The notes: generated by a model from the letters alone, not told the origin. Positions 3,138 to 55,641 are shown, numbered from the stretch's first letter. The stretch: DNA of 57,756 nt from Candidatus Krumholzibacteriia bacterium (GCA_029932915.1 JAOZPE010000012.1:1-57756), one strand, 5' to 3'. Translations and numbers: made by a program.

Positions 3138-4243
3138 CACGCCGCCGAACTCTTCGCCTTGCGGCCCCGACCCCGCCCACTCTCCGAAGTGGGCTTGGGC
3201 TGGCTCGTCGGCGCTTCGTCCTTCTTGCGCGGGGAGGGAGGTTGGATCTCGTAGTGCTCGAAGACCTCGTTCTGGATGCGGTCGCGCAGGTCGGCGTTCT
3301 CCTTCAGGAAGACACGCACGTTCTCGCGGCCCTGACCCAGACGCTCCTCGCCATAGGAGAACCACGCTCCGCTCTTCTGGATCACCCCCGCCTCCACACC
3401 GAGGTCGATGAGATCGCCTTCGCGGGAGATGCCCTCGCCGTAGAGGATGTCGAACTCACACTTCTTGAACGGAGGCGAGACCTTGTTCTTGACCACCTTC
3501 ACCCGCACCCGGCTGCCGGTGACCTTCTCGCCCTCGGTGATGCCGCCGATGCGGCGGATGTCCAGACGCACCGAAGCGTAGAACTTCAGGGCGTTGCCGC
3601 CCGAAGTGGTCTCCGGATTGCCGAACATCACCCCGATCTTCATGCGGATCTGGTTGGTGAAGAGCACGAGGGTGTTGGTCTTCTTGATCGCCCCGGTGAG
3701 CTTGCGCAGGGCCTGGCTCATCAGCCGCGCCTGCAGTCCGACGTGCTGGTCGCCCATCTCGCCCTCGATCTCCGCGCGGGGGACGAGTGCAGCCACCGAG
3801 TCGATGACGATGACATCGAGAGCACCGCTGCGCACCAGCATCTCGGCGATCTCCAGCGCCTGCTCGCCGGTGTCCGGCTGGCTCACCAGGAGGTTGTCGA
3901 CGTCCACGCCGAGCTTGCGCGCGTAGGTCGGATCCATGGCGTGTTCGGCGTCGATGAACGCGGCCATGCCGCCTTCCTTCTGCGCGTTGGCGATGACGCT
4001 CAGGCAGACGGTGGTCTTGCCGCTGCCCTCGGGTCCGTAGATCTCGGCCACGCGGCCGCGGGGAAGGCCGCCGATGCCCAGGGCGATGTCCAGGGCCAGG
4101 CTGCCGGTGGAGATGGGAATGACGTCCTCGACCGCGCCCTCATCGCCGAGTCGCATGAGAGCGCCCTTGCCGTATTGTTTCTCGATCTGCGCCCGGGTGA
4201 GTTCCAGGGCCTGGAGGCGCTCGTCTCTGGGATCCTTGGCCAT
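3137..4243 (-). CDS. recA: Recombinase RecA
   Basis: RecA, 368 residues, the ATP-dependent strand-exchange protein that also triggers LexA self-cleavage. Visible motifs: the Walker [26 protein letters not shown], Walker [21 protein letters not shown], loop L1/L2 region [20 protein letters not shown] and [11 protein letters not shown], and [17 protein letters not shown]. The C-terminal tail here is basic and serine-rich ([13 protein letters not shown]) rather than acidic. The start [15 protein letters not shown] at 4243 follows GGAAGGGAGATC, a good ribosome site. Coupled to recX. LexA is encoded 42 kb away in the same window, but I could not recognise a classical LexA box upstream. Confidence 0.99.
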
Positions 4244-4340
4244 GATCTCCCTTCCTGGTGGAAGCGTTGATGAAATGTCCGGGAGGTTGGTTTCGGGGGG
4301 ACAGGTCCGTGGGGCGGGGAGACCTGACACCGCGCGCCGC

Positions 4341-4369
4341 ACTCTACCACGGCCGCCGGTGCGGCGCAA
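4341..4369 (-). promoter_or_regulatory. Putative sigma70-type promoter of recA
   Basis: Read on the minus strand, TTGCGC (4364-4369) is followed after 17 bases by TAGAGT (4341-4346), in the 145-base space between thpR and recA and about 100 bases before the recA start. Spacing is ideal and both hexamers are near consensus, but no experimental support exists and RecA could also be read through from cinA-thpR. Confidence 0.45.
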
Positions 4370-4388
4370 GACAGCCGCCAATGCGCCC

Positions 4389-4937
4389 TCAACCCTCCAG
4401 AGGGTGACGGGACAGGAGCCGGTAGCGCGCACCGTCCGGGTGCAGACGGCTCTCGAAGAATTCGATCGCCTCGATCCGGCTGCTCCAGGACAGAGGGGCC
4501 AGCTCGGCGGCCAGACGCCGCAGATCCTCCTGGCGGGGCGGGCGGCGGAAGCGGGCCACCGTCAGGTGGGCGCGGAAGGGACGCCGCCGGGGCCGCAGAT
4601 CCGCCGGCAGGGCCGCGATGAGCTCCCGGGCCAGGGCAGCGAGGCGCTCCTCCCCCTCCTGCACGCCCAGGTAGGCCACGCGCGCCGCGCGCCACGACGG
4701 GAACACGCCCAATCCTCCCCACTCCACCGCGAAGGCCGGACGGTGGGCCGCCGCATCGGCCGCCGCCTCGATCGCCTCCCTTCGCCCCTCCTCCAGTTCG
4801 CCGAGGAAGGCCAGGGTCAGGTGCAGGTTCTCCGGGGACGGCCATCGTCCCCCCAGCTCCTCCGTCCACTGCGGCAGCAGCACGCCGAGTTCGCGGCGCA
4901 GGTTCTCCGGGGGGGTGACGGCGAGGAAGAGGCGCAT
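4389..4937 (-). CDS. thpR: RNA 2',3'-cyclic phosphodiesterase (ThpR/LigT)
   Basis: A 182-residue 2H phosphoesterase. Family members hydrolyse 2',3'-cyclic phosphates at RNA ends and can ligate tRNA halves in vitro. Both catalytic HxT motifs are present: HLTLAFLG near residue 39 and [10 protein letters not shown] near residue 125. The N-terminus [18 protein letters not shown] is typical of the family. The ATG at 4937 lies 4 bases after the cinA stop, and pairing with cinA just upstream of recA is a common bacterial arrangement, which supports the call and suggests translational coupling. Confidence 0.93.
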
Positions 4938-4941
4938 CGTC

Positions 4942-6180
4942 CTAGGTGGGAAGGCTTCCCGCCACCGGCGCCTTCATCTCCCGGCGCAAGAGGTCCAGGG
5001 CCGCGGCGACGCTCCACCGGCGGTTCTGCTCGCGGTCGCCCGGCAGCTGGAGGAGCCGGGTCCGGGTGGAGCCCTCGCCGGCCAGGCCCAGGTGGACCGT
5101 GCCCACCGGTTTCTCCGGAGTGCCCCCACCGGGTCCGGCCACGCCGGTCACCGCCACCGCCCAGCTCGAGCCCAGACGCCGGCGCGCGCCCTCGGCCATC
5201 GCGGCCGCACATTCGGCGCTGACGGCGCCGTGCTGCACGAGGAGCGACTCGGGAACCTCGAGTTCGCGCATCTTCACCTCGTTGGCGTAGGCGACGATGC
5301 CACCCACGAAGGCCTGGCTGCTTCCGGCCACCGCGGTGAACGCGCCCCCCAAAAGGCCGCCGGTGCACGACTCGGCCACCGCCACCGTCTCACCGCGTCG
5401 GATCAGTTCGTCCAGGACCACCTCGTCCAGACCCGTCTCCCCGATGGCGTAGAGATCGGATCCGAGGGCGTCGATCAAGATCCGCGCGCCCTCGGTGGGA
5501 TCGACCTCCTCGTGCCGCCCCTGCACCAGGATGTCCACCCCGAAGGGGGTCACGCAGAAACCCACCTCCAGCTCGGACGATTCGATTCCGCTGCCGGCGA
5601 CCCGATCGGCCGCCCGCGACTCGGGCAGACCGGCGGTGCGCAGACGCACGAGCGCGGGCGCGCTGCCTTCGACCAGGGGAAGCACGACCGCCTCGGCCGT
5701 CGTCTCCCACATCGCCCGCAACTCGGCGGGGACGCCGGGCAGCAGGATCAAGGGAACCCCCTCGTGCAGATGCAGCAGTCCGGGAGCGGTGCCCCGGGGA
5801 TTGGCGATGGGACGTCCACTGGGAGTGCGGAGGGCCTGGCGCAGGTTGCTGTGGGCCATCGAGCGGCCGCGTTCGCGGTAGCGGCGCCGGAGCTGATCGA
5901 CCAGCTCCTCGTCCTCCACCAGCTCCTCCCCGACCACCCGGGCGAGGGCCTGCCGGGTGATGTCGTCGGCGGTGGGTCCGAGCCCGCCGCTGACGACCAC
6001 CGCCACCGACTCGCGCCAGGCGGCCTCGATCGCCCGGGCGATGGCCTCCAGACGGTCCGGGACGATGCGGATCGATCCCACCCGGGCCCGCTTCCGCCGC
6101 AGCCGTTCGATGATGTAGCGCGAGTTGCTCTCGGGGGTGCGGCCATCGAGCAGCTCGTCGCCGACCATGACCAATGCCAC
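4942..6180 (-). CDS. cinA: CinA-family protein (competence/damage-inducible; NMN deamidase domain)
   Basis: A 412-residue CinA. The N-terminal COG1058 molybdopterin-binding-like domain begins VALVMVGDELLDGRTPESN and carries SGGLGPTADD; the C-terminal domain, which in characterised homologues deamidates nicotinamide mononucleotide, has AVAESCTGGLLG, GGIVAYANEVKMRELEV, HGAVSAECAAAMAEGAR and AVTGVAGPGGGTPEKPVG. I chose GTG at 6180 because AGGAG lies 10 bases upstream and homologues begin at this point; a longer frame runs into pgpA and shows no homology. It precedes thpR-recA-recX, a classical DNA-uptake/recombination grouping. Confidence 0.94.
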   Translation of the reverse strand: MALVMVGDELLDGRTPESNSRYIIERLRRKRARVGSIRIVPDRLEAIARAIEAAWRESVAVVVSGGLGPTADDITRQALARVVGEELVEDEELVDQLRRRYRERGRSMAHSNLRQALRTPSGRPIANPRGTAPGLLHLHEGVPLILLPGVPAELRAMWETTAEAVVLPLVEGSAPALVRLRTAGLPESRAADRVAGSGIESSELEVGFCVTPFGVDILVQGRHEEVDPTEGARILIDALGSDLYAIGETGLDEVVLDELIRRGETVAVAESCTGGLLGGAFTAVAGSSQAFVGGIVAYANEVKMRELEVPESLLVQHGAVSAECAAAMAEGARRRLGSSWAVAVTGVAGPGGGTPEKPVGTVHLGLAGEGSTRTRLLQLPGDREQNRRWSVAAALDLLRREMKAPVAGSLPT

Positions 6181-20331: not shown

Positions 20332-22833
20332 TCAACCTCCACCCTTCTTGCCCAGACCCTTCAGCAGTCCCCGCAGCTTGTCGGTCACCGACCGGGTGGC
20401 CTCCCCCTGGGCCCGGCTGCGGGCGCTGTCCAGCTCCAGGGAGATCGAGGGCTTGCTTCCGTCGCCTTCGACGTGGACGGGGATGGTGATGCGCCCGTCC
20501 TCGGTGCGCAGGAATTCCACCAGGGGGGTGAGCGAACCCAGGTCGAGTTTCTCCTGGGCCGGCAGCTTCACCTCCAGGTGATAGTCCACCCGGCCGTCGA
20601 GGCCCACCCAGCCGTTGGCCTGCAGACGGGTCGGCCCCTTCAGGACCGTCTCGTCGAAGTGCACGCGACCCTGATCGAGTTGCAGATGGGTCAGGAATTC
20701 GTGGAATGGGATCTCGTTCAACTTCGCCGCCGCTCCGGCCGGCAGGGAAGCCAGGCCCTTCCCCAGCAACTGGGCGGTGATCAGCTTGCCCGCGCCCCCC
20801 TTCAGGGTCGCCTCTCCGCTGAGGGCCGAGAGGATCTGCCGTCCATCCTCGCCCATGGCACCCGCCAGCTCCAGCCGGCCGGCGAGCACGGTGCTCAGGG
20901 CCGAAGCCAATCGCGGCGCCAGGGGAGCCAGGATCTCCTGCGAGGGCAAGGCCTCCACCCGGGTCTGCAGGGTCCATCGCGGTTGCGGGGCCTTCCAGTC
21001 GATCCGTGCCTGTCCGCTCAGGTGCCCGTCGCCGAGCCGGGCCGTGAGATCGTCGAGCTCCATCACCTGGTCCTGCAGATCCAGCTCGCCCCGGAGATCC
21101 TCGAAGGCATAGCCCCGGGTCAGCAGGCGGTCGCAGCGCAGCCGCAGCCGGGCCGAGAGATCCTCCGGCGGAGCGGGCATCGTCGTCTCCGCCCCGGCGG
21201 CCCGGGCCTCCGGAACCTTCCACCACCGCGGCGAGAGGGAGGCGTGGGATTCCTCCGTCGGCCGACTCATCAGCCGATCGAGGTCGATGCGGGTGAAGGC
21301 AGCCTCCCCCACGAAGTTCCGCCCGGAGGAGTCGCTCAGCAGACGGCCCCCGATCCGTCCCTCCATGGCCGGGCCCGACAACTGCAGATCCTCGATCTCG
21401 AGTTCCTTGCCCTCCAGCCGAAGCCGGCCGGCGGTGAGGATCAGGCTGTCCGGCAGCGAGGGCATCCGAAGCGCCACGCGGTGGATGGTCCACGTCGAAC
21501 GCACTGCGTCGGCGGGCATCGGGGACGGCGGTGGCCAGGGCATGGAGATCTCGATCCTTCCATCCACCCTTCCCGCCGCCTCGGGCCATCGTTCCGGGGG
21601 CGAGGCCTTCGTTCGCAGACTCTCGGGAAGCTCGGGCCAGATCGAACGCAGCAGTTCCTCGGCCGCCTGCGCATCCACCACCGCGTCGAAACGCCCGCTG
21701 GCACTGCCCTCCCCCATCACCGGCATCTCGATGCTCCCGCGCATCGAGCAGCCGGGCACCGACAGATCACCGGTGTGCAGGGTCAGGGTGTTCCCCTGCT
21801 GCACGAAGTCCAGGTTTCCGCGCAGTAGATCGTCGCGCCCGTAGGCGCCGACGCGAAGATCCTCGACCGCACCGCGCACGGAGACGAGGGCCAGCCACTG
21901 CCGCGGCGTCGCGCCCGGCGGGGGCAGGAATCCCTCGCCACGCACCGTGCCTCCGGCACTGTGGTAGTCCCACTGCAGGTCCGAGGGAAGGGAGCTCGCG
22001 TCCAGCGCCGCGAAGTTCCGGCGCAGGGCCTCGACCCCGGCCGTCCACTGCAACTCGCCGTGCAGGTGCACGCGGCCGCCGGTGTCCTCCAGTTCGACCG
22101 GACCCTCCCACTGCACGCCCCCGATGCTGCCCTCGGTGAAGCGGAGGTGGAGCTGCAGGGGCTGCAGGCGGCCGGTGGCTTCCATCCGCAGAGCGAGATC
22201 GGAGAGTTCCAGCGGGGGAAGATCCTGACGGTAGTGGGCCAGGCCGCCCTCCAGCCGTGCCGTGAAGGTGCCGTCGGGCAGCAGACGGGCGTGCGCGCGC
22301 TGGTCGAGGCCTTCGAGCCGGAAAGTGCGTCCTCCCTCGGCATGCACGGTGATCCGCCCGTCCTCGATCGACAGCAGGGCCAGGGCCATGGCGCCGGGCG
22401 CGATGGAGTTTGCGGTGGAATCCCCAACCGCTCCGGGCCCGGGCGTCCCGCCCTTCTTCGCCGGCGATGCGTCCATCCACAGCTCCAGCCGTGGGCTCTC
22501 GAGACGGATCTCCTGCACCTGGGGCCTCTTCCTCAGCAGCGACCACAGATCGGCGGTGGCGGTGAGTTCCTCGATCTCCCCCTCCACCCTGGGCATCCCG
22601 GGACGACTGGTGTCTCCCCCCGAGATGGTCAGGCCCTTCAGGCGCAGTCCCACCGGCCAGGGGAAGCGGATGCTCGCTTCCTCGGCGGTGGCCCGCAGGC
22701 CGGTGCGCGCCTCCAGTTGGGCGAAGAGGAAATCCTTCACCGCGTCCGCGGGAACCAGGCTTCGCACCGCGACCACCGCGAGCAGGAGCACCACCGCGAT
22801 CACCACGACGATTCGAACTGCCTTCTTCTTCAT
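20332..22833 (-). CDS. AsmA-family envelope protein
   Basis: An 833-residue protein anchored by one N-terminal membrane helix (AVRIVVVIAVVLLLAVVAV, residues 5-24) with a long periplasmic part. The N-terminal AsmA signature is visible: LVPADAVKDFLFAQLEARTG followed by RFPWPVGLRLKGLTI, then many beta-rich repeats. The AsmA C-terminal domain (about residues 650-810) includes LSGEATLKGGAGKLITAQLL, FHEFLTHLQLDQGRVHFDE and WVGLDGRVDYHLEVKLP. Family members form bridge-like grooves moving phospholipids between membranes. Its ATG overlaps the mnmA stop by 4 bases (22830-22833). It closes the envelope operon, ahead of the tRNA cluster. Confidence 0.9.
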   Translation of the reverse strand: MKKKAVRIVVVIAVVLLLAVVAVRSLVPADAVKDFLFAQLEARTGLRATAEEASIRFPWPVGLRLKGLTISGGDTSRPGMPRVEGEIEELTATADLWSLLRKRPQVQEIRLESPRLELWMDASPAKKGGTPGPGAVGDSTANSIAPGAMALALLSIEDGRITVHAEGGRTFRLEGLDQRAHARLLPDGTFTARLEGGLAHYRQDLPPLELSDLALRMEATGRLQPLQLHLRFTEGSIGGVQWEGPVELEDTGGRVHLHGELQWTAGVEALRRNFAALDASSLPSDLQWDYHSAGGTVRGEGFLPPPGATPRQWLALVSVRGAVEDLRVGAYGRDDLLRGNLDFVQQGNTLTLHTGDLSVPGCSMRGSIEMPVMGEGSASGRFDAVVDAQAAEELLRSIWPELPESLRTKASPPERWPEAAGRVDGRIEISMPWPPPSPMPADAVRSTWTIHRVALRMPSLPDSLILTAGRLRLEGKELEIEDLQLSGPAMEGRIGGRLLSDSSGRNFVGEAAFTRIDLDRLMSRPTEESHASLSPRWWKVPEARAAGAETTMPAPPEDLSARLRLRCDRLLTRGYAFEDLRGELDLQDQVMELDDLTARLGDGHLSGQARIDWKAPQPRWTLQTRVEALPSQEILAPLAPRLASALSTVLAGRLELAGAMGEDGRQILSALSGEATLKGGAGKLITAQLLGKGLASLPAGAAAKLNEIPFHEFLTHLQLDQGRVHFDETVLKGPTRLQANGWVGLDGRVDYHLEVKLPAQEKLDLGSLTPLVEFLRTEDGRITIPVHVEGDGSKPSISLELDSARSRAQGEATRSVTDKLRGLLKGLGKKGGG

Positions 22834-23933
22834 TCTGTCTCCTCGAGACGGCCGCCTCCGACGACGACCCCCTCCCGGTACAGGACCACCGATTGTCCCG
22901 GAGCCGGTGCACGGTCCGGTTCGGCCAACTCCACCGACAACTTCGCTCCATCCCGCTGGAGGCGCCGTACCGGCCGCCCCGTATGGCGGGAACGGGTGCG
23001 CGCCACCAGACCGGGGCCACCGTCGAGGGGATCGCGCAACCAGGCATCGTCACAGTGCAGACGATGACGGAGAAGCTCGGCTTCCCCCCCCACCTGCACC
23101 CGGTTCGAGCGGGGATCGAGGGCGGTCACGAACCACGGACCGCCGCGGTCCACCCCCAGGCCCCTTCTCTGCCCCACCGTATAGAAGGGCAGACCGCGGT
23201 GGTGTCCGATCACCCGTCCCGTCGACTCGACGATCTCGCCGGGGCCCCGTCCCCGGCCGGTCAGGGGGATGCGGTCGCCTCCGGGCACGAAACAGATCTC
23301 CTGGCTGTCGGGAGTCTCCGCTGCGGGCAGACCCCGCCGGCGCGCCTCCTCCCGCACCCGCTCCTTCGTCCACCCACCGAGGGGGAAGGTGCAACGCTGC
23401 AGGAGCGCCGGCGTAAGCGCATGCAGGTAATAGGATTGATCCTTGGACCCATCGGCGGCGCGGGCCAGGTGCAGACCACCGCGTTCGTGCCGCACCAGAC
23501 GCACGTAGTGGCCGCTCGCCACGAAGGCGGCCCCCATCCGCTCGGCATGCTCCAGGAACGAGGGAAAGCGGACCCGGCGGTTGCAACGCACACAGGGATT
23601 GGGGGTACGGCCCCGCCGGTACTCCTGCACGAAGTCGTCGATCACTTCCGAAGCGAAGAGCGGGACGACATCGAGCACCTGGTGGGCGATGCCCAGATCG
23701 GCGGCCAACGCGCGCGCCGCGTCGATCGCGGCCTCCGAGCAACAGGCGCCCTCGTCGAGCCGATCGCCGCCGGGGAGTTCGGCCGGCCGGAAGTTGCGCG
23801 TCGTCACCCCGAGGAGTTCGCAACCCCGTTCCTTCAGCCGGAGGGCGGCGACCGCGCTGTCCACCCCTCCGGAGAGACCGATCACCACGCGGGTACCGGC
23901 TCCGGGAAGTTCCACTTCAGACCACGCGGACAT
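22830..23933 (-). CDS. mnmA: tRNA-specific 2-thiouridylase MnmA
   Basis: A 367-residue enzyme that thiolates U34 of tRNA-Glu, -Gln and -Lys; a tRNA-Glu(TTC) target is encoded at 45820. Motifs: PP-loop VVIGLSGGVDSAVAALRL, GACCSEAAIDAARALA, the catalytic cysteine in RGRTPNPCVRCNRRVRF, SGHYVRL, DQSYYLHAL and the second cysteine in ETPDSQEICFVPGG, then the C-terminal barrel with FYTVGQRRGLGV. ATG at 23933 gives the best match to family length; a GTG at 23969 overlaps the TPR gene stop. A tRNA-modification gene within an envelope operon is probably incidental cotranscription. Confidence 0.95.
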   Translation of the reverse strand: MSAWSEVELPGAGTRVVIGLSGGVDSAVAALRLKERGCELLGVTTRNFRPAELPGGDRLDEGACCSEAAIDAARALAADLGIAHQVLDVVPLFASEVIDDFVQEYRRGRTPNPCVRCNRRVRFPSFLEHAERMGAAFVASGHYVRLVRHERGGLHLARAADGSKDQSYYLHALTPALLQRCTFPLGGWTKERVREEARRRGLPAAETPDSQEICFVPGGDRIPLTGRGRGPGEIVESTGRVIGHHRGLPFYTVGQRRGLGVDRGGPWFVTALDPRSNRVQVGGEAELLRHRLHCDDAWLRDPLDGGPGLVARTRSRHTGRPVRRLQRDGAKLSVELAEPDRAPAPGQSVVLYREGVVVGGGRLEETE

Positions 23934-23965
23934 CGTCTCGGCGGCGCCGGGACCGTGGCGGGGAA

Positions 23966-24667
23966 TCACCGGCCCGAGGCGTCCTTCTCCTTCGGATCGG
24001 GAAGCTGGGGAGCCTCGGTCTTCATCAGATCCTCGATGATCTTGATGTTGGCCGCACTGCGCTCACCCAGATCGCTGTGGGGATCGACCTCGACGACCTT
24101 CTCCCATTCGCGGCGCGCCTCGCGATAGACCTGCGCGTCGGCGAAGAGGATCGCCATGTTGTAGTGCGCCAGTTGGGAATCGGGATGGTGCTCGATGGCG
24201 GTCTGGAAGGCGTCCAGGGCCCGACCGATCTCGCGCTTCTTGAAGTAGACCCCTCCGAGATTGCAAAGGGCCTTCTCGTCGGTGGGCGCCAGCTTCAGGG
24301 CCTGCGAGTAGCTCTTCAGGGCCTGGTCGAGCTGCCCCAGGTCGTCCTGGGCGTTGCCCAGGTTCACCCATCCTCCCAGGAAATCGGGATCGAGCTTCGT
24401 CGTCGCCTCGAACTCGTCGGCCGCCGCCTGCGACTTGTTCTCGTCCAGATACAGATTCCCCAATGCGAAGTGCAGGGCCGCATCGTCGGGTGACTTCTTC
24501 AACTCCTCCTGCAGCAGCTCGATCCGGGTCGCATTGTCCGGAAGGGAGTCGAGCTTCTGCTGCAGATCCTCGGGCAGCCGGGAGGTGTCCGCCAGCAACG
24601 GCGTCGCAACGAGCATCACGGTGATGATCAGGATCACGGACGAGACAAGCGCTCCAACAGACTTCAT
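23966..24667 (-). CDS. Exported TPR-repeat protein
   Basis: A 233-residue protein with an N-terminal signal segment (VSSVILIITVMLVATPLLA) and about five TPR units: PDDAALHFALGNLYLDENKS, FLGGWVNLGNAQDDLGQLDQ, EKALCNLGGVYFKKREIGRA, SQLAHYNMAILFADAQVYRE, and a degenerate last one. The helical repeats should bind a protein partner in the periplasm. It is in the operon downstream of the outer-membrane barrel and just before mnmA, so it may help that barrel or the Exb/TonB-like complex. The precise partner is unknown. Confidence 0.88.
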   Translation of the reverse strand: MKSVGALVSSVILIITVMLVATPLLADTSRLPEDLQQKLDSLPDNATRIELLQEELKKSPDDAALHFALGNLYLDENKSQAAADEFEATTKLDPDFLGGWVNLGNAQDDLGQLDQALKSYSQALKLAPTDEKALCNLGGVYFKKREIGRALDAFQTAIEHHPDSQLAHYNMAILFADAQVYREARREWEKVVEVDPHSDLGERSAANIKIIEDLMKTEAPQLPDPKEKDASGR

Positions 24668-45077: not shown

Positions 45078-45689
45078 TCAGCCCTGGGCCAGGGTCTTCA
45101 GGGCCTGCTCGGCCGCGGCGCGGGCCGCATCGATCTCCGCTTCACCACCGCACATGTAGAGCCGGCCGAAGGCGCCGATGGGGTTGGCGTCGATGAGGGT
45201 GACCGGAGCGGCCTTCTCCGCCTCGTTGGCGGCCAGGATGCAGTAGGCGGCCGGCTCGGTCTCCAGGATGAAGAGCGACTGGCCGGGAACGATCATCGAA
45301 CCGTAGCGGGTGCGGTTGATGAGCTGGGTGTGGTAGGGCTCCACCCCCCGGATCACCGTGGAGGAGACCACCTTCGGCGGGGTCCGCTCGTTCTCCTTCT
45401 TGCCGATGGCCCGCAGCACCGCCTCTCCCGCTTCGCGGACCTCACCCTGGTCGGGATGGTTCACCTCGAAGAGACCGTAGGCGCGTTCGGTGACGATGGT
45501 CGCCGGGCGGACCGAGGTGGCCTTCAGGGCGATGTCGAGCAGCTCGTGGATGCGGATGGCCGGCGCGATCTCCACCCACAGCGAGGCCACGCCGGGCACG
45601 GGAAGGAAACCCCGGCAGGTGGTCCCCACCGACGCGGCCAACTGCGGCTGCAGGGTGTCCAGGAAGGCGTATGTGCGAAGATCGACCAT
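45078..45689 (-). CDS. Tandem-domain bacterial microcompartment shell protein, CcmP-like (BMC-T)
   Basis: A 203-residue protein that I recognise as closest to CcmP of beta-carboxysomes, a shell protein with two fused BMC domains whose trimers form a large gated pore and can stack. First half: [60 protein letters not shown] and [20 protein letters not shown]. Second half: [40 protein letters not shown], then [20 protein letters not shown]. CcmP counterparts carry nearly the same blocks. No RuBisCO, aldehyde dehydrogenase, BMC-H or pentamer gene is nearby, so it is an orphan here. ATG at 45689 was chosen from family starts; the ribosome site is poor. An ATG 8 codons upstream is an alternative. 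Confidence 0.85.
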
Positions 45690-45819
45690 GCCGGTGAAGG
45701 TGCCAGGGCTCATCGGCGGTGTCAATGGAACAGTCGACGGTCCCGTCGATCGACACCTGCACGGGAAGGACATGGAGGGAAATACGGCCGTCCGGGAGTG
45801 TCCGGGCGGTCGTGTCGTC

Positions 45820-49667: not shown

Positions 49668-51731
49668 ATGGCCTCCGCCTCCGATCTGAATCGGCCGCAC
49701 CTGCTGCCCCCCAGCGACATCAATCCCCGCACGGACGCTCCCCTGGACTTTCCCGACCGCGGCTTCGGTGCGTTGACGGCAGACGACTACCGGGTTCTCG
49801 GATTCATGTCCGGGCTGGAGGTCCATCAGCAACTGGCCACGGCCCGCAAGCTCTTCTGCCGCTGCCCGGCGGGTATCCGGGTCGACCACTTCGACACCGA
49901 GGTGCTCCGGCACATGCGCCCCACCCTCAGTGAACTGGGCGAGTACGACGGCTGTGCCCTGATGGAGTTCAAGACCCGCAAGGAGATCGTCTACCAGCTC
50001 GAACGGGGCACGGTCTGCACCTACGAGATCGATGACACCCCACCTTTCGAGATCAATCCCGAGGCGGTGGAGATCGCCATCGAGGTGGCCCAGCTCTTCC
50101 ATCTCAATCTGGTGCAGGAACTGCACGTGATGCGCAAGCAATACCTCGACGGTTCGATCCCCACCGGCTTCCAGAGGACTGCGATGGTCGGGCTGGACGG
50201 CGAGATCCCCTTCGTCGACAAGGAGCTGGGGATCGACCGCCCCCTGCGGATCCGGCAGCTCTCCCTGGAAGAGGACTCGTGCCGGGAGATCAGCGACATC
50301 GGCCACCGGATCGTCTTCCGCACCGACCGTCTGGGAACGCCTCTCACCGAGGTGGTGACCGAGCCGGAGATGCTGAGCCCCCTCGAACTGCAGGCGGCCG
50401 CGCGTCTGGTGGCCCGGACCACCCGCGCTTCCGGACGGGTGCGCCGGGGAGCAGGCGCGGCCCGGCAGGATGTCAATGTCTCGATCGCCGGTGGACGCCG
50501 CATCGAGATCAAGGGGGTCTCCCACCACAAGGGACTTCCCCTGCTCGTCCATAACGAGGCCTACCGTCAACTGAACCTGTTGAGGATCCGCGAGGAGCTG
50601 CGGCGGCGCGGGGTCCAGCCCCAGTGGTTCATCCTGCCGCCCGGCAATGGTGACGCCGAGGAGTCCGATGGCGTCCTCGATGCCACCGCGATCCTCTCCG
50701 GCTGCGATTTCGCTCCCCTGCGCGATTCGCTCGATGCGGGTGAGAGCGCCCTGGCGGTGCGCCTGCGCGGCTTCAAGGGTCTGCTCCTCCACCGCACCCA
50801 ACCCGGGGTGACCTTCGCCAACGAGTTCGCCGACCGCGTCCGGGTGATCGCATGCCTGACCGCCCGCCCCTTCCTCATCCACAGCGACATCGAAGGCTAT
50901 GGTCTGGAGCATGCGCTGTGGTCACAACTGCACAAGGCCCTGCAGTGCGAGGAGCAGGACGCGATGATCGTGGTCTGGGGTCCTCGCCGCGATCTGGATA
51001 CCGCTGTCCGCGAGATCTTCATCCGGGCGAAGGACGCGCTCATCGGGGTCCCCGCCGAGACGCGTCAGGCCTTCCCCGACGGCACCAACGGTTTCGAGCG
51101 GATCCTGCCCGGCGTCGACCGGATGTACCCGGACACCGACACCCCACCGGTTCCCATCGACGACGCCCTTGTCGAACGCATCCGCCTGGAACTTCCCGAA
51201 CGTCCTTGGGAGAAGACGAGGCGCTGTATCTCCCTTGGCCTTCCCCCCGACGCGATCGATCGGCTCCTGGACGCGCCGTGGTGCAAGCTCTTCGACCAGC
51301 TCCAGGCGGAGGGCGCGGTGGCGCAGCGCATCACCTACGCGCTGGAGAAGCGTCTTCCCCACTGGTGGCGCGAGTGGGGGCATCGGGAGCTGCCGAGTGC
51401 CGAACGCCTCCGGCCGTGGGCCAAGGCCCTCGCCGACGGCGAGGTCCATCCGCAGGCCTGCGAAGCGATCCTCGACCGCCTGCTGCGCGAGTCCGATCGA
51501 CCGGCCGAGGAGATCGTGGCCGCATACCGGAGCTCCGAAGGTGACGAGAAGGAACTCGCCGAGCTGCTCGAGTCCATCGAGCGCGATTGCGCGTTCCTGA
51601 GGGTGAAGGAGATCGAGCCCGCCCTGCGATGGGCGATGGGACGACTGATGGCCGCGTTCAAGGGCAAGCGGACACCCGAGGAACTGAGAGAGCGCGCGGT
51701 GAAGGCCCTCGCCTCCGGAGGTGTGCAGTGA
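49668..51731 (+). CDS. gatE: Archaeal-type glutamyl-tRNA(Gln) amidotransferase subunit E
   Basis: A 687-residue GatB/GatE-type protein that phosphorylates Glu on tRNA(Gln) and amidates it with ammonia from GatD. It is GatE, not GatB: LTADDYRVLGFMSGLEVHQQ and LATARKLFCRCPAG at the start, LSLEEDSCREISDIGHRIVF, EVVTEPEMLSPLELQAAARL and GRVRRGAGAARQDVNVSIAG. In the middle (about 275-420) a large insertion with RRIEIKGVSHHKGLPLLVHN and GVTFANEFADRVRVIA replaces the GatB pattern and matches the AspRS-like insertion of GatE. The C-terminal helical YqeY-like tail (EEIVAAYRSSEGDEKELAEL) contacts tRNA. GatE is a bit longer than the usual 620-630. The stop overlaps the gatD start by 4 bases. GatDE is normally archaeal. 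Confidence 0.92.
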   Translation: MASASDLNRPHLLPPSDINPRTDAPLDFPDRGFGALTADDYRVLGFMSGLEVHQQLATARKLFCRCPAGIRVDHFDTEVLRHMRPTLSELGEYDGCALMEFKTRKEIVYQLERGTVCTYEIDDTPPFEINPEAVEIAIEVAQLFHLNLVQELHVMRKQYLDGSIPTGFQRTAMVGLDGEIPFVDKELGIDRPLRIRQLSLEEDSCREISDIGHRIVFRTDRLGTPLTEVVTEPEMLSPLELQAAARLVARTTRASGRVRRGAGAARQDVNVSIAGGRRIEIKGVSHHKGLPLLVHNEAYRQLNLLRIREELRRRGVQPQWFILPPGNGDAEESDGVLDATAILSGCDFAPLRDSLDAGESALAVRLRGFKGLLLHRTQPGVTFANEFADRVRVIACLTARPFLIHSDIEGYGLEHALWSQLHKALQCEEQDAMIVVWGPRRDLDTAVREIFIRAKDALIGVPAETRQAFPDGTNGFERILPGVDRMYPDTDTPPVPIDDALVERIRLELPERPWEKTRRCISLGLPPDAIDRLLDAPWCKLFDQLQAEGAVAQRITYALEKRLPHWWREWGHRELPSAERLRPWAKALADGEVHPQACEAILDRLLRESDRPAEEIVAAYRSSEGDEKELAELLESIERDCAFLRVKEIEPALRWAMGRLMAAFKGKRTPEELRERAVKALASGGVQ

Positions 51732-53116
51732 ACGACGATCGCTACAAGGGATACCGCGAGCCCTGCCTCGGCCTGCTCCAGCGCTTCGACGTGGGGGTGT
51801 GGTACGAAGTGCGGGTGACCACCCGCGAGGGCTCCTTCGAGGGCCTGCTGCTGCCGCGCAGCGTGACCTCCGACGCGCATCACATCGTGCTCAAACTGAC
51901 CACCGGTTACAACGTCGGCCTTCGCTGTGACACGATCGTGGAGATGCAGCAGATCGGTTACCGCGAGGCGCACTACAAGATCCCCGAACAGGAATTCCCG
52001 GTGAGCCGCGACAAGCCCCGGGTGAAACTGTTGGGAACCGGCGGCACGATCGCCTCGCGCCTGGACTACCGCACCGGCGCGGTCATCCCCGCCTTCTCGC
52101 CGGGTGAACTCTACGGTTCGGTCCCCGAACTGGCGGAGATCTGCAATCTCGAGACCGACAAGCTCTTCGGGGTCTTCAGTGAGAACATGGGACCCGAGCA
52201 ATACCTGGTGCTGGCCGAGACCATCGGCCAGACCATCGAGGAGGGCTATGCGGGCATCGTGGTCGGACACGGCACCGACACCATGCACCACACCGCCGCC
52301 GCCCTGTCCTTCATGGTGCAGGATCCACCGGTGCCCATCGTGATGGTGGGAAGCCAGCGCTCCAGCGACCGGCCCTCGAGCGATGCGGCGCAGAACCTCA
52401 TCAATGCCACCTGGGCCGCGGCCACCGGCGACATCGCCGAGGTCATGGTGTGCATGTTCGGGCCGACCAGCGACCAGTACAACCTGCTGCACCGGGGAAC
52501 GCGGGTGCGGAAGATGCACAGCTCCTACCGCTCGACCTTCCGCACCCTCGGCGACATCCCTCTGGCCATGGTCGACGACGGGGTCATCACCCATCTCAAG
52601 GACGACTACCGTCCCCGCCGCGACGACCGCCGGGTGAAGGTGCAGCCCGCCTTCGAGGAGAAGGTGAGCCTGCTCTACTACTACCCCAACATGCAGGCGG
52701 ACATGGTCGACGCGCTCGTCGAGCGCGGCTACAAGGGCATCGTCCTGGCCGGCACAGGTCTGGGCCACGTCAACCGCACGCTCTATCCGGCCCTCCGCCG
52801 CGCCCACGAGGCCGGCGTGGTGGTCTTCATGACCCTGCAGACCCTGTGGGGCTTCGTGCAGATGCACGTGTACGAGACCGGCCGGGAGATCCTCGAACTC
52901 GGAGTGGTGCCGCTGGCGAACATGCTTCCCGAAGTGGCCTACATCAAGCTCGGCTGGGCGTTGGGGATGCACCCGGACGATCCCGCCCGCGTGGTCGAGC
53001 TGATGACCACCTCGATCGCGGGCGAGATGACCGAGCGCGAACCCCACGATGGCTACCTCGTCTTCCAGGGCGGCGTGCCGGAGATCCAGGACTTCCTCCA
53101 GCAGGTCTGGAAGTAG
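51728..53116 (+). CDS. gatD: Archaeal-type glutamyl-tRNA(Gln) amidotransferase subunit D (asparaginase-like)
   Basis: A 462-residue glutaminase subunit that supplies ammonia to GatE. GTG at 51728 overlaps the gatE stop (GTGA) and has GGAGGT 5 bases before it. The N-terminal 80 residues (RFDVGVWYEVRVTTREGSFE, then LPRSVTSDAHHIVLKLTTGY) form the Tudor-like domain found in GatD but not in L-asparaginases. The asparaginase domain has VKLLGTGGTIASRLDYRTGA (catalytic T107), IVVGHGTDTMHHTAAALSFM (T183, D184) and the GatD-type VGSQRSSDRPSSDAAQNLIN. Then GIVLAGTGLGHVN and GVVVFMTLQTLWGFVQMHVY. The order E then D, coupled, makes one enzyme. No GatCAB gene lies in the window. Confidence 0.93.
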   Translation: MNDDRYKGYREPCLGLLQRFDVGVWYEVRVTTREGSFEGLLLPRSVTSDAHHIVLKLTTGYNVGLRCDTIVEMQQIGYREAHYKIPEQEFPVSRDKPRVKLLGTGGTIASRLDYRTGAVIPAFSPGELYGSVPELAEICNLETDKLFGVFSENMGPEQYLVLAETIGQTIEEGYAGIVVGHGTDTMHHTAAALSFMVQDPPVPIVMVGSQRSSDRPSSDAAQNLINATWAAATGDIAEVMVCMFGPTSDQYNLLHRGTRVRKMHSSYRSTFRTLGDIPLAMVDDGVITHLKDDYRPRRDDRRVKVQPAFEEKVSLLYYYPNMQADMVDALVERGYKGIVLAGTGLGHVNRTLYPALRRAHEAGVVVFMTLQTLWGFVQMHVYETGREILELGVVPLANMLPEVAYIKLGWALGMHPDDPARVVELMTTSIAGEMTEREPHDGYLVFQGGVPEIQDFLQQVWK

Positions 53117-54186: not shown

Positions 54187-55563
54187 TCAGTCGATCCACT
54201 CGAAGCGGGCGCTGAAGTGCCGCAGGAAGGGAGCCTCCTCGACGATGCGCATGCCCCGGATCGACTCCCGCCGCTGATGGAGGGCCTCGATCACCTCGAT
54301 GACGTAGTCGATGTGGCTCTGCGTGTAGACCCGGCGGGGAATGGCCAGGCGCACCAGTTCCATCGGCGCCGGCACCTCCTCGCCGGTCTCGGGATCCTTC
54401 GAGGCGAACATCACCGAACCGATCTCGACCCCGCGGATCCCCCCTTCCAGGTACAGCTCGCAGGTCAGGGCCTGCCCGGGATACTGCAGAGGGGGGATAT
54501 GGGGCAGCATCGCGGCCGCGTCGATGTAGATGGCGTGGCCGCCGGGCGGCTGCATGATCGGCACGCCGGCGGCGGCGATCCGTTCACCGAGGTACCGGGT
54601 ACTGGCCAGACGGTACTGGAGATAGTCCTCCTCGAGGATCTCCTTCAGACCCTGGGCCATCGCCTCCAGATCGCGCCCGGCCAGCCCTCCGTAGGTGGGG
54701 AACCCCTCGGTGAGGATCAAGAGCTCCTTCTCCTGGCGGGCCAGCACGTCGTCGTTGGTGCACAGGAAGCCCCCGATGTTGACCAGGGCGTCCTTCTTGG
54801 CGCTCATCGTGCACCCGTCGGCGTAGGAGAACATCTCGCGGGCGATCTCCTTCACCGATCTATCCGCGTAGCCTTCCTCGCGCAGCTTGATGAAGTAGGC
54901 GTTCTCGGCGAAACGGCAGGCATCGAAGTACAAGGGCAGGGAATACTCGTCGCAGACCGCACGCACCGCCTTGATGTTCTCCATGCTCACCGGCTGCCCG
55001 CCGCCGGAGTTGTTGGTGATGGTGATCATCACCAGGGGGATCCTCTGCGGACCGTATTCCTCGATCACCGCCCGCAACTTGTCCACGTCGACATTGCCCT
55101 TGAAGGGATGCAGGTTGCTGGGCACGTGCGCCTCGTCGATCACCACATCGACCGCCTTGGCCCCGCGGAACTCGATGTTGGCCCGGGTGGTGTCGAAGTG
55201 CGTGTTGTTGGGTACCACCGAGTTCTCGTCGCACATGATGGAGAACAGGATGCGCTCGGCGGCCCGGCCCTGGTGGGTCGGAATGACGTACTCGAAGCCC
55301 ATGATGTCCTTCACCGTCTCCTCGAAACGGTAGTACGAGCGGCTGCAGGCATAGGCCTCGTCACCCTGCATCACCCCGGCCCACTGCTGCGCGCTCATCG
55401 CTGAGGTCCCGCTGTCGGTCAGCAGGTCGATCAGGACGTCGTCGGCGTGGATGAGGAAGGGATTCAAGCCCGCCTTGGCCAGGATCCCCTCTCTCTGCTG
55501 CCGGGTGGTCATGCGGATGGGCTCGACCGACTTGATCTTGAAGGGTTCGATGATGGTCTTCAC
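54187..55563 (-). CDS. tnaA: Tryptophanase (tryptophan indole-lyase)
   Basis: A 458-residue PLP enzyme of the tryptophanase / tyrosine phenol-lyase group, splitting tryptophan to indole, pyruvate and ammonia. Motifs: PFKIKSVEPIRMTTRQQREG, LIDLLTDSGTSAMSAQQWAG, IPTHQGRAAERILF, NNSGGGQPVSMENIKAV, FDACRFAENAYFIK and the PLP lysine in SYADGCTMSAKKDALVNIGG. Two diagnostic positions favour tryptophanase over tyrosine phenol-lyase: THFDTTRANIEF has Asp where TPL has Thr, and IRGVEIGSVMF has Ile where TPL has the substrate-binding Arg. The GTG start at 55563 has GGAG 8 bases upstream. No tnaC leader or tnaB permease is adjacent. It lies downstream of the M1 peptidase. Confidence 0.9.
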   Translation of the reverse strand: MKTIIEPFKIKSVEPIRMTTRQQREGILAKAGLNPFLIHADDVLIDLLTDSGTSAMSAQQWAGVMQGDEAYACSRSYYRFEETVKDIMGFEYVIPTHQGRAAERILFSIMCDENSVVPNNTHFDTTRANIEFRGAKAVDVVIDEAHVPSNLHPFKGNVDVDKLRAVIEEYGPQRIPLVMITITNNSGGGQPVSMENIKAVRAVCDEYSLPLYFDACRFAENAYFIKLREEGYADRSVKEIAREMFSYADGCTMSAKKDALVNIGGFLCTNDDVLARQEKELLILTEGFPTYGGLAGRDLEAMAQGLKEILEEDYLQYRLASTRYLGERIAAAGVPIMQPPGGHAIYIDAAAMLPHIPPLQYPGQALTCELYLEGGIRGVEIGSVMFASKDPETGEEVPAPMELVRLAIPRRVYTQSHIDYVIEVIEALHQRRESIRGMRIVEEAPFLRHFSARFEWID

Positions 55564-55641
55564 GGAGGATCTCCAGGGCTCGGTGCGGGAAAAGGATCGC
55601 GAATTCCAGCGGAATCCGGCCGGGCTTTCAGGACAGGGCAC

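Follow-up and report, generated by a model that had tools for sequence, protein, structure and literature searches.

The window, by which we mean the whole stretch of 57,756 nucleotides analyzed here (JAOZPE010000012.1:1-57756, from the Candidatus Krumholzibacteriia bacterium assembly GCA_029932915.1), encodes in two overlapping genes, gatE and gatD, a complete Glu-tRNA(Gln) amidotransferase GatDE. A preliminary description of this DNA had regarded the pair as an archaeal-type enzyme acquired by a bacterium through lateral transfer. The finding proved real and broader than claimed, and had in part been misread: the data point to a conserved, apparently working bacterial branch of GatDE, which usually occurs beside glutaminyl-tRNA synthetase (GlnRS). 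We consider it likely that the two genes form a working amidotransferase that would act as the sole route to Gln-tRNA(Gln) in some bacteria, and as a second or repair route in the window's organism.

Both gene products score above the cut-offs of their own curated families. GatE passes the two NCBIfam GatE equivalog models (NF003107 and TIGR00134; 502.5 bits against 456 and 443.9 against 319.55), with an alignment that covers nearly the whole model, whereas bacterial GatB models remain far under their cut-offs (at best 132 bits against 338). Similarly, GatD passes its two models (NF003217 and TIGR02153; 489.9 bits against 310 and 488.7 against 324). The Pfam scan found a GatB_N domain in GatE and the domains GatD_N, Asparaginase and Asparaginase_C in GatD, in agreement with the predicted asparaginase fold preceded by a Tudor-like domain. 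The nearest solved chains in the PDB are those of P. abyssi (1zq1_C for GatE, 1zq1_A for GatD) and M. thermautotrophicus (2d6f_C and 2d6f_A). The window is thus confirmed to encode a complete GatDE in a bacterial genome, and not a bacterial GatB next to a plain L-asparaginase. The four-base overlap of the two genes likely couples their translation. An open reading frame of 509 amino acids that starts with TTG and also ends at 53116 was rejected as GatD for being too long, the conserved protein beginning at the GTG codon at 51728.

Structure prediction offers a further level of comparison. The AlphaFold2 model of GatE (mean predicted local distance difference test score 83) retrieved 2d6f and 1zq1 as top fold matches (target template-modeling score 0.77-0.79), followed by GatB and, last and weakly, by aspartyl-tRNA synthetase (AspRS). 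Between the flanking motifs lie 206 residues in the window GatE, 185 in GatE of M. thermautotrophicus and 57 in S. aureus GatB, which together with the weak AspRS matches bears out the AspRS-like insertion proposed earlier. All catalytic residues examined are retained, as had been noted: E51, H53, E202 and E228 of GatE are invariant in 59 of 59 aligned GatE and GatB sequences, and T183, D184 and K262 of GatD in 52 of 52 GatD and asparaginase sequences, with T107 present in 51 and one gap. The catalytic roles of the residues are those established for these enzymes. Conservation is uneven along GatE, the C-terminal tail of the window protein being 19% and its body 40% identical to M. thermautotrophicus; overall, the tail is about 14-31% identical to archaeal GatE, and for the catalytic body the identity to its M. 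thermautotrophicus counterpart is 34-41%. Among close pairs in family f5, whose members mostly carry GlnRS as well, the ratio of nonsynonymous to synonymous substitution rates (dN/dS) is 0.06-0.32 for GatE and 0.04-0.18 for GatD, indicating that both genes are under purifying selection even in GlnRS-bearing lineages.

In the proposed mechanism, GatD would use its asparaginase fold to free ammonia from glutamine or asparagine at the Thr/Thr/Asp/Lys site, and GatE would use ATP and Mg2+ to activate Glu-tRNA(Gln) at its gamma-carboxylate, which it would then amidate to give Gln-tRNA(Gln). The GatDE of the window's organism would be a member of an old and widespread bacterial branch. With GlnRS present as well, it would provide a second route or serve to repair, by amidation, the Glu-tRNA(Gln) arising from mischarging of tRNA-Gln by glutamyl-tRNA synthetase (GluRS). 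Curated family membership and fold, catalytic residues kept in 50-odd sequences and a gene pairing conserved across phyla argue for this reading. It is also favored by the purifying selection, by the tracking of GatE by GatD in the phylum, by the presence of GlnRS, GatDE or both in every one of its 46 good genomes, by G028 and G111 with GatDE but neither GlnRS nor GatB, by the GluRS2-like enzyme of G028, by the position of gltX ahead of tRNA-Gln(CUG) and by the single genome with glnS next to gatE (all described below or above).

Bacterial GatDE is widespread, usually encoded as a gatE-gatD pair and mostly coexisting with GlnRS. GatE scores above the cut-off in 61 of 80 Krumholzibacteriota genomes (66 of 80 with strong partial matches), and GatD, which tracks GatE within the phylum, is present in 57 of 78. 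Among Bacteroidales, the order of Labilibaculum, GatE is above the cut-off in 63 of 149 genomes. A scan of GTDB genomes gave at least 580 pattern matches to GatE, the best 80 of which are all bacterial and include Bacteroidota, Ignavibacteria, Planctomycetota, Aminicenantes, Fermentibacteria, Cloacimonetes, Zixibacteria, WOR-3 and Myxococcota, with the isolates Perlabentimonas gracilis and Labilibaculum sp. among them; since matches were ordered by similarity to the window GatE, these best 80 are biased toward its kin. In most loci showing both genes, gatD directly follows gatE on the same strand, adjacent or overlapping. Since gatE and gatD stand next to each other again in other genomes of the phylum, a chimeric assembly of archaeal and bacterial DNA was ruled out. 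The earlier view of a complete GatDE in a plainly bacterial genome is upheld, and the pair is conserved. That the hosts are not archaeal, being Krumholzibacteriota and many other bacterial phyla, describes the distribution and not the protein. An archaeal-type GatDE in a bacterium is therefore real but no one-off, as most of the phylum and many other phyla carry it, and the premise that bacteria use GatCAB or GlnRS, with GatDE left to archaea, does not agree with intact GatDE across many unrelated bacteria. A conserved neighborhood beyond gatE-gatD was not found among 80 loci. Only in one of them (L026:1578-3965 and 4001-5998) is glnS adjacent, where it is fused to a YqeY-like domain and lies directly upstream of gatE-gatD.

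The preliminary description had expected the window's genome, which is 98% complete with 4% contamination, to have neither glnS nor gatCAB. Both were found. GlnRS is present as two fragments at contig ends (C20:1-3000, locus L149; C82:1-6000, locus L150), one of which reaches 551 bits against a cut-off of 426. The fragments overlap over 97 amino acids and differ there, at 78% amino-acid identity, so one of them may be an additional copy or lie on a stray contig. Mere contamination was rejected as the source of GlnRS, given that three of three relatives of the same family carry the full-length enzyme. By eye, the C20 fragment retains the motifs in which Cys229 and Gln255 of E. coli GlnRS lie. 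A gatC-gatA-gatB cluster lies on contig C23, with GatB at 591 bits against a cut-off of 338 and with GatA (471.8 against 481.1) and GatC (44 against 47.1) both just under theirs. Asparaginyl-tRNA synthetase (AsnRS), for which a search had also been proposed, is present as well (467 bits against 343).

The same coexistence extends over the phylum. Among the 80 sampled genomes, 49 hold both GlnRS and GatDE, 17 have GatDE alone, 9 have GlnRS alone and 5 have neither, these five all being less than 90% complete; for the 46 genomes of good quality the corresponding numbers are 36, 6, 4 and 0. Mutual exclusion of GlnRS and GatDE was rejected among these 46 (Fisher p = 1). In other groups, 45 of 48 GatDE-bearing genomes have GlnRS above the cut-off, and GatDE often coexists with GlnRS in the absence of GatCAB. 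Two genomes behave differently: neither GlnRS nor GatB was found in G028 (95% complete) or in the 1.4 Mb Bacteroidales genome G111, so that GatDE is the only route to Gln-tRNA(Gln) found in either. The expectation of an unusual route to Gln-tRNA holds in that GatDE is present, but it is mostly a second route beside GlnRS, and the sole route in few genomes.

A supply of Glu-tRNA(Gln) calls for a GluRS that accepts tRNA-Gln, and a search for such a non-discriminating enzyme had been suggested. Arg358 of the Thermus enzyme is a known determinant by which GluRS rejects tRNA-Gln. A single GluRS was found in the window's genome; it is bacterial and has Arg at this position. Families f1, to which the window belongs, and f5 hold Arg-type GluRS only, and families f3, f6 and f7 mostly have two GluRS, one of the Arg358 type and one GluRS2-like with usually Asn, Gln, Gly or Lys; the second GluRS of G012 differs from the usual GluRS2-like enzymes in having Arg. 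In G028, the additional GluRS2-like enzyme has Gln at this position. The GluRS of G111 also has Arg, though no GlnRS was found in that genome; Arg358 is therefore a weak marker, rejected as proof of a discriminating GluRS.

The tRNA genes themselves show a uniform pattern. In families f1, f2, f3, f6 and f7 (loci L183, L184, L168, L163, L200 and others), tRNA-Gln(CUG) lies immediately behind the Arg-type gltX, and in most cases tRNA-Glu(CUC) comes next. In the window's genome, tRNA-Gln(CUG) (L151:4036-4109) likewise follows gltX, and tRNA-Glu(CUC) is on another contig. All 20 of 20 aligned tRNA-Gln(CUG) genes have the pair U1-A72 and not the archaeal A1-U72. The same pair occurs in the tRNA-Gln(UUG) genes of G028 and of the window's genome, which makes both tRNA-Gln genes of each of these two genomes U1-A72. 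A division of tRNA-Gln isoacceptors between GlnRS and GatDE by the discriminator base was rejected, as A73 or G73 is independent of the presence of GlnRS. The window also encodes, at 22830-23969 on the minus strand, MnmA, which 2-thiolates U34 of tRNA-Gln, tRNA-Glu and tRNA-Lys.

Several of these observations weigh against a working GatDE that serves Gln-tRNA(Gln) in the window's organism. Its GluRS is predicted to be discriminating and to reject tRNA-Gln, leaving Glu-tRNA(Gln) without an evident supplier. For the archaeal enzyme, recognition of tRNA-Gln through its D-loop and the A1:U72 pair has been described (PMC9499178), whereas tRNA-Gln here is U1-A72 and the GatE tail has diverged as well; bacterial GatDE must therefore tolerate or prefer U1-A72. 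GatDE is also dispensable where GlnRS exists, because relatives (G001, G049, G070 and G077) keep GlnRS and have no GatDE. Finally, the pattern of at least one route per genome among the 46 good genomes is not significant (Fisher p = 1).

These points could be explained by a GatDE that is a remnant on its way out, GlnRS having taken over. The presence of GlnRS in 54 of 80 phylum genomes and the four relatives that keep only GlnRS agree with such a replacement, which nevertheless seems improbable to us: coexistence recurs in many phyla and would be long-lived for a remnant, and in GlnRS-bearing lineages the motifs are intact and dN/dS lies well below 1. To this extent the earlier claim of a working enzyme rather than a remnant stands. 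The data show that the genes are gatE and gatD, that their motifs are intact and that both are conserved and occur together with GlnRS; catalysis, substrate and the role as a second or repair route are what we infer. It is also doubtful, and we give it little weight, that bacterial GatDE now serves another purpose, for instance the amidation of some other misacylated tRNA. Coexistence with GlnRS, often without GatCAB, would fit such a shift, as would the diverged GatE tail and a tRNA-Gln identity unlike that of archaea; yet G028 and G111 would then be left without a route to Gln-tRNA(Gln), and the catalytic body has kept its similarity to the M. thermautotrophicus enzyme. A working GatDE thus remains the preferred reading. 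Its furthest extension, in which many bacteria would run GlnRS together with an ancient, U1-A72-recognizing GatDE branch as a repair or glutamine-sparing route, and the statement that GatDE is restricted to archaea would be wrong, has in our estimate an even chance of being correct.

The origin of the bacterial branch was addressed with FastTree trees (50 bootstraps), GatB being the outgroup for GatE. All 50 bootstraps recover bacterial GatE as monophyletic, and 48 of 50 group the three archaeal sequences together; bacterial GatD is likewise monophyletic (50/50), and the two archaeal GatD are not resolved as a group. Bacterial GatDE hence forms one clade beside, not inside, the sampled archaea, which comprise three GatE (Pyrococcus, Methanothermobacter and Natrinema, the last with an incomplete frame) and two GatD, all from Euryarchaeota. 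The Natrinema GatE, unannotated on the N. thermotolerans megaplasmid (CP031304.1, locus L162), was matched in two pieces, and with a longest open frame of 481 amino acids it may be broken.

The nesting among archaea expected from a lateral transfer is thus not seen with this set of archaea. A recent acquisition from an archaeon, replacing missing GlnRS and GatCAB, is largely refuted and very improbable: although the nearest solved homologues are archaeal and the curated family models carry an archaeal label, GatDE occurs in most of the phylum and in many others, the bacterial GatE clade stands apart with 48-50 of 50 bootstraps, and the enzymes supposedly replaced are both present. We lean slightly toward an ancient single transfer from archaea to bacteria, perhaps into an ancestor of the Bacteroidota or Gemmatimonadota type, followed by vertical descent and transfer between bacteria. 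This agrees with bacterial GatE and GatD each forming one clade and with a distribution centered on Bacteroidota, Krumholzibacteriota, Cloacimonadota, Fermentibacterota and Zixibacteria; the Krumholzibacteriota families lie scattered over the GatE tree, a pattern suggestive of transfer between bacteria. The monophyly of the sampled archaeal GatE speaks against it, within a small sample that is all euryarchaeal. A GatDE older than the split of bacteria and archaea, retained in a minority of bacteria, is a possible but rather unlikely alternative. Rooted with GatB, the GatE tree shows the bacterial clade as sister to that of the sampled archaea, and Sheppard and Soll, in the account of their argument given by PMC9499178, placed GatDE in the last universal common ancestor (LUCA); the distribution in bacteria is patchy, however, outgroup rooting is fragile over such a distance, and archaeal sampling is thin.

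Coordinates of the GatDE features in the window are collected in Table 1. Two further genes of the surrounding region, both on the minus strand, encode a bacterial microcompartment shell-like (BMC-domain) protein adjoining tRNA-Glu(TTC) and lexA (45078-45773) and, downstream of gatD, a beta-eliminating lyase of the tryptophanase/tyrosine phenol-lyase family (54187-55641).

Table 1. The gatE-gatD locus of the window and the features of its products
Feature	Position	Strand	Remarks
gatE	49668..51731	+	Glu-tRNA(Gln) amidotransferase subunit E, 687 amino acids; ATG start at 49668, TGA stop ending at 51731
GatE active-site residues E51, H53, E202, E228	49818..50351	+	Equivalent to S. aureus GatB E10, H12, E125, E150
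AspRS-like insertion domain of GatE (about residues 285-484)	50520..51119	+	From motif spacing and weak AspRS fold matches
GatE C-terminal helical and tail region (about residues 515-687)	51210..51728	+	Little conserved relative to archaea
gatE/gatD overlap, GTGA	51728..51731	+	Four bases; gatD start codon and gatE stop codon, read in the sequence
gatD	51728..53116	+	Glu-tRNA(Gln) amidotransferase subunit D, 462 amino acids; GTG start at 51728, TGA stop ending at 53116
GatD N-terminal Tudor-like domain (residues 27-72)	51806..51943	+	Pfam PF18195 GatD_N, 45.6 bits against 25.7
GatD catalytic residues T107, T183, D184, K262	52046..52513	+	Equivalent to M. thermautotrophicus T101, T177, D178, K254

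GatDE is stated to be restricted to archaea in reviews of 2021 (PMC8007984) and 2022 (PMC9499178), and this restriction underlies arguments on LUCA, on the lack of GlnRS in archaea and on the co-evolution of GatDE with tRNA (PMC9499178). In 2014, a survey covering 547 bacterial genera, in which GatD and GatE were not among the genes sought, stated that bacteria possessing both Gln routes were not known (PMC4206432). No report of bacterial GatDE was found in the open-access papers searched, although one may exist elsewhere; NCBI family models will already label bacterial gatD and gatE genes in databases. If bacterial GatDE works, the split between bacteria and archaea in amide-tRNA synthesis is not as drawn, and GatDE is not bound to A1-U72 tRNA-Gln. 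Cultivated Bacteroidales strains (Labilibaculum, Perlabentimonas) would then provide the means of testing the purpose of a second route.

Compared with known systems, the enzyme is closest to archaeal GatDE (2d6f and 1zq1), with which it shares both subunits, their domain order, the AspRS-like insertion, the Tudor-like domain of GatD, the catalytic residues and the fold. It differs in its bacterial hosts, mostly equipped with GlnRS, in the U1-A72 pair of tRNA-Gln, in the diverged GatE tail and in its separate clade. With bacterial GatCAB it has in common the ATP-dependent amidation domain and the tail region of GatB and GatE; GatB, however, has no insertion domain, and GatCAB takes its ammonia from GatA instead of GatD and also serves tRNA-Asn. 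Type I L-asparaginases have the same fold and Thr/Thr/Asp/Lys site as GatD but neither its N-terminal domain nor a partner gatE, and GatD passes curated cut-offs of its own. The nearest parallel for two routes in one genome is offered by Bdellovibrio, Deinococcus and Thermus, in which AsnRS occurs together with GatCAB (PMC4206432). There too a direct synthetase and an indirect amidotransferase serve one amide amino acid, but the doubled product is Asn-tRNA(Asn), whereas here it would be Gln-tRNA(Gln).

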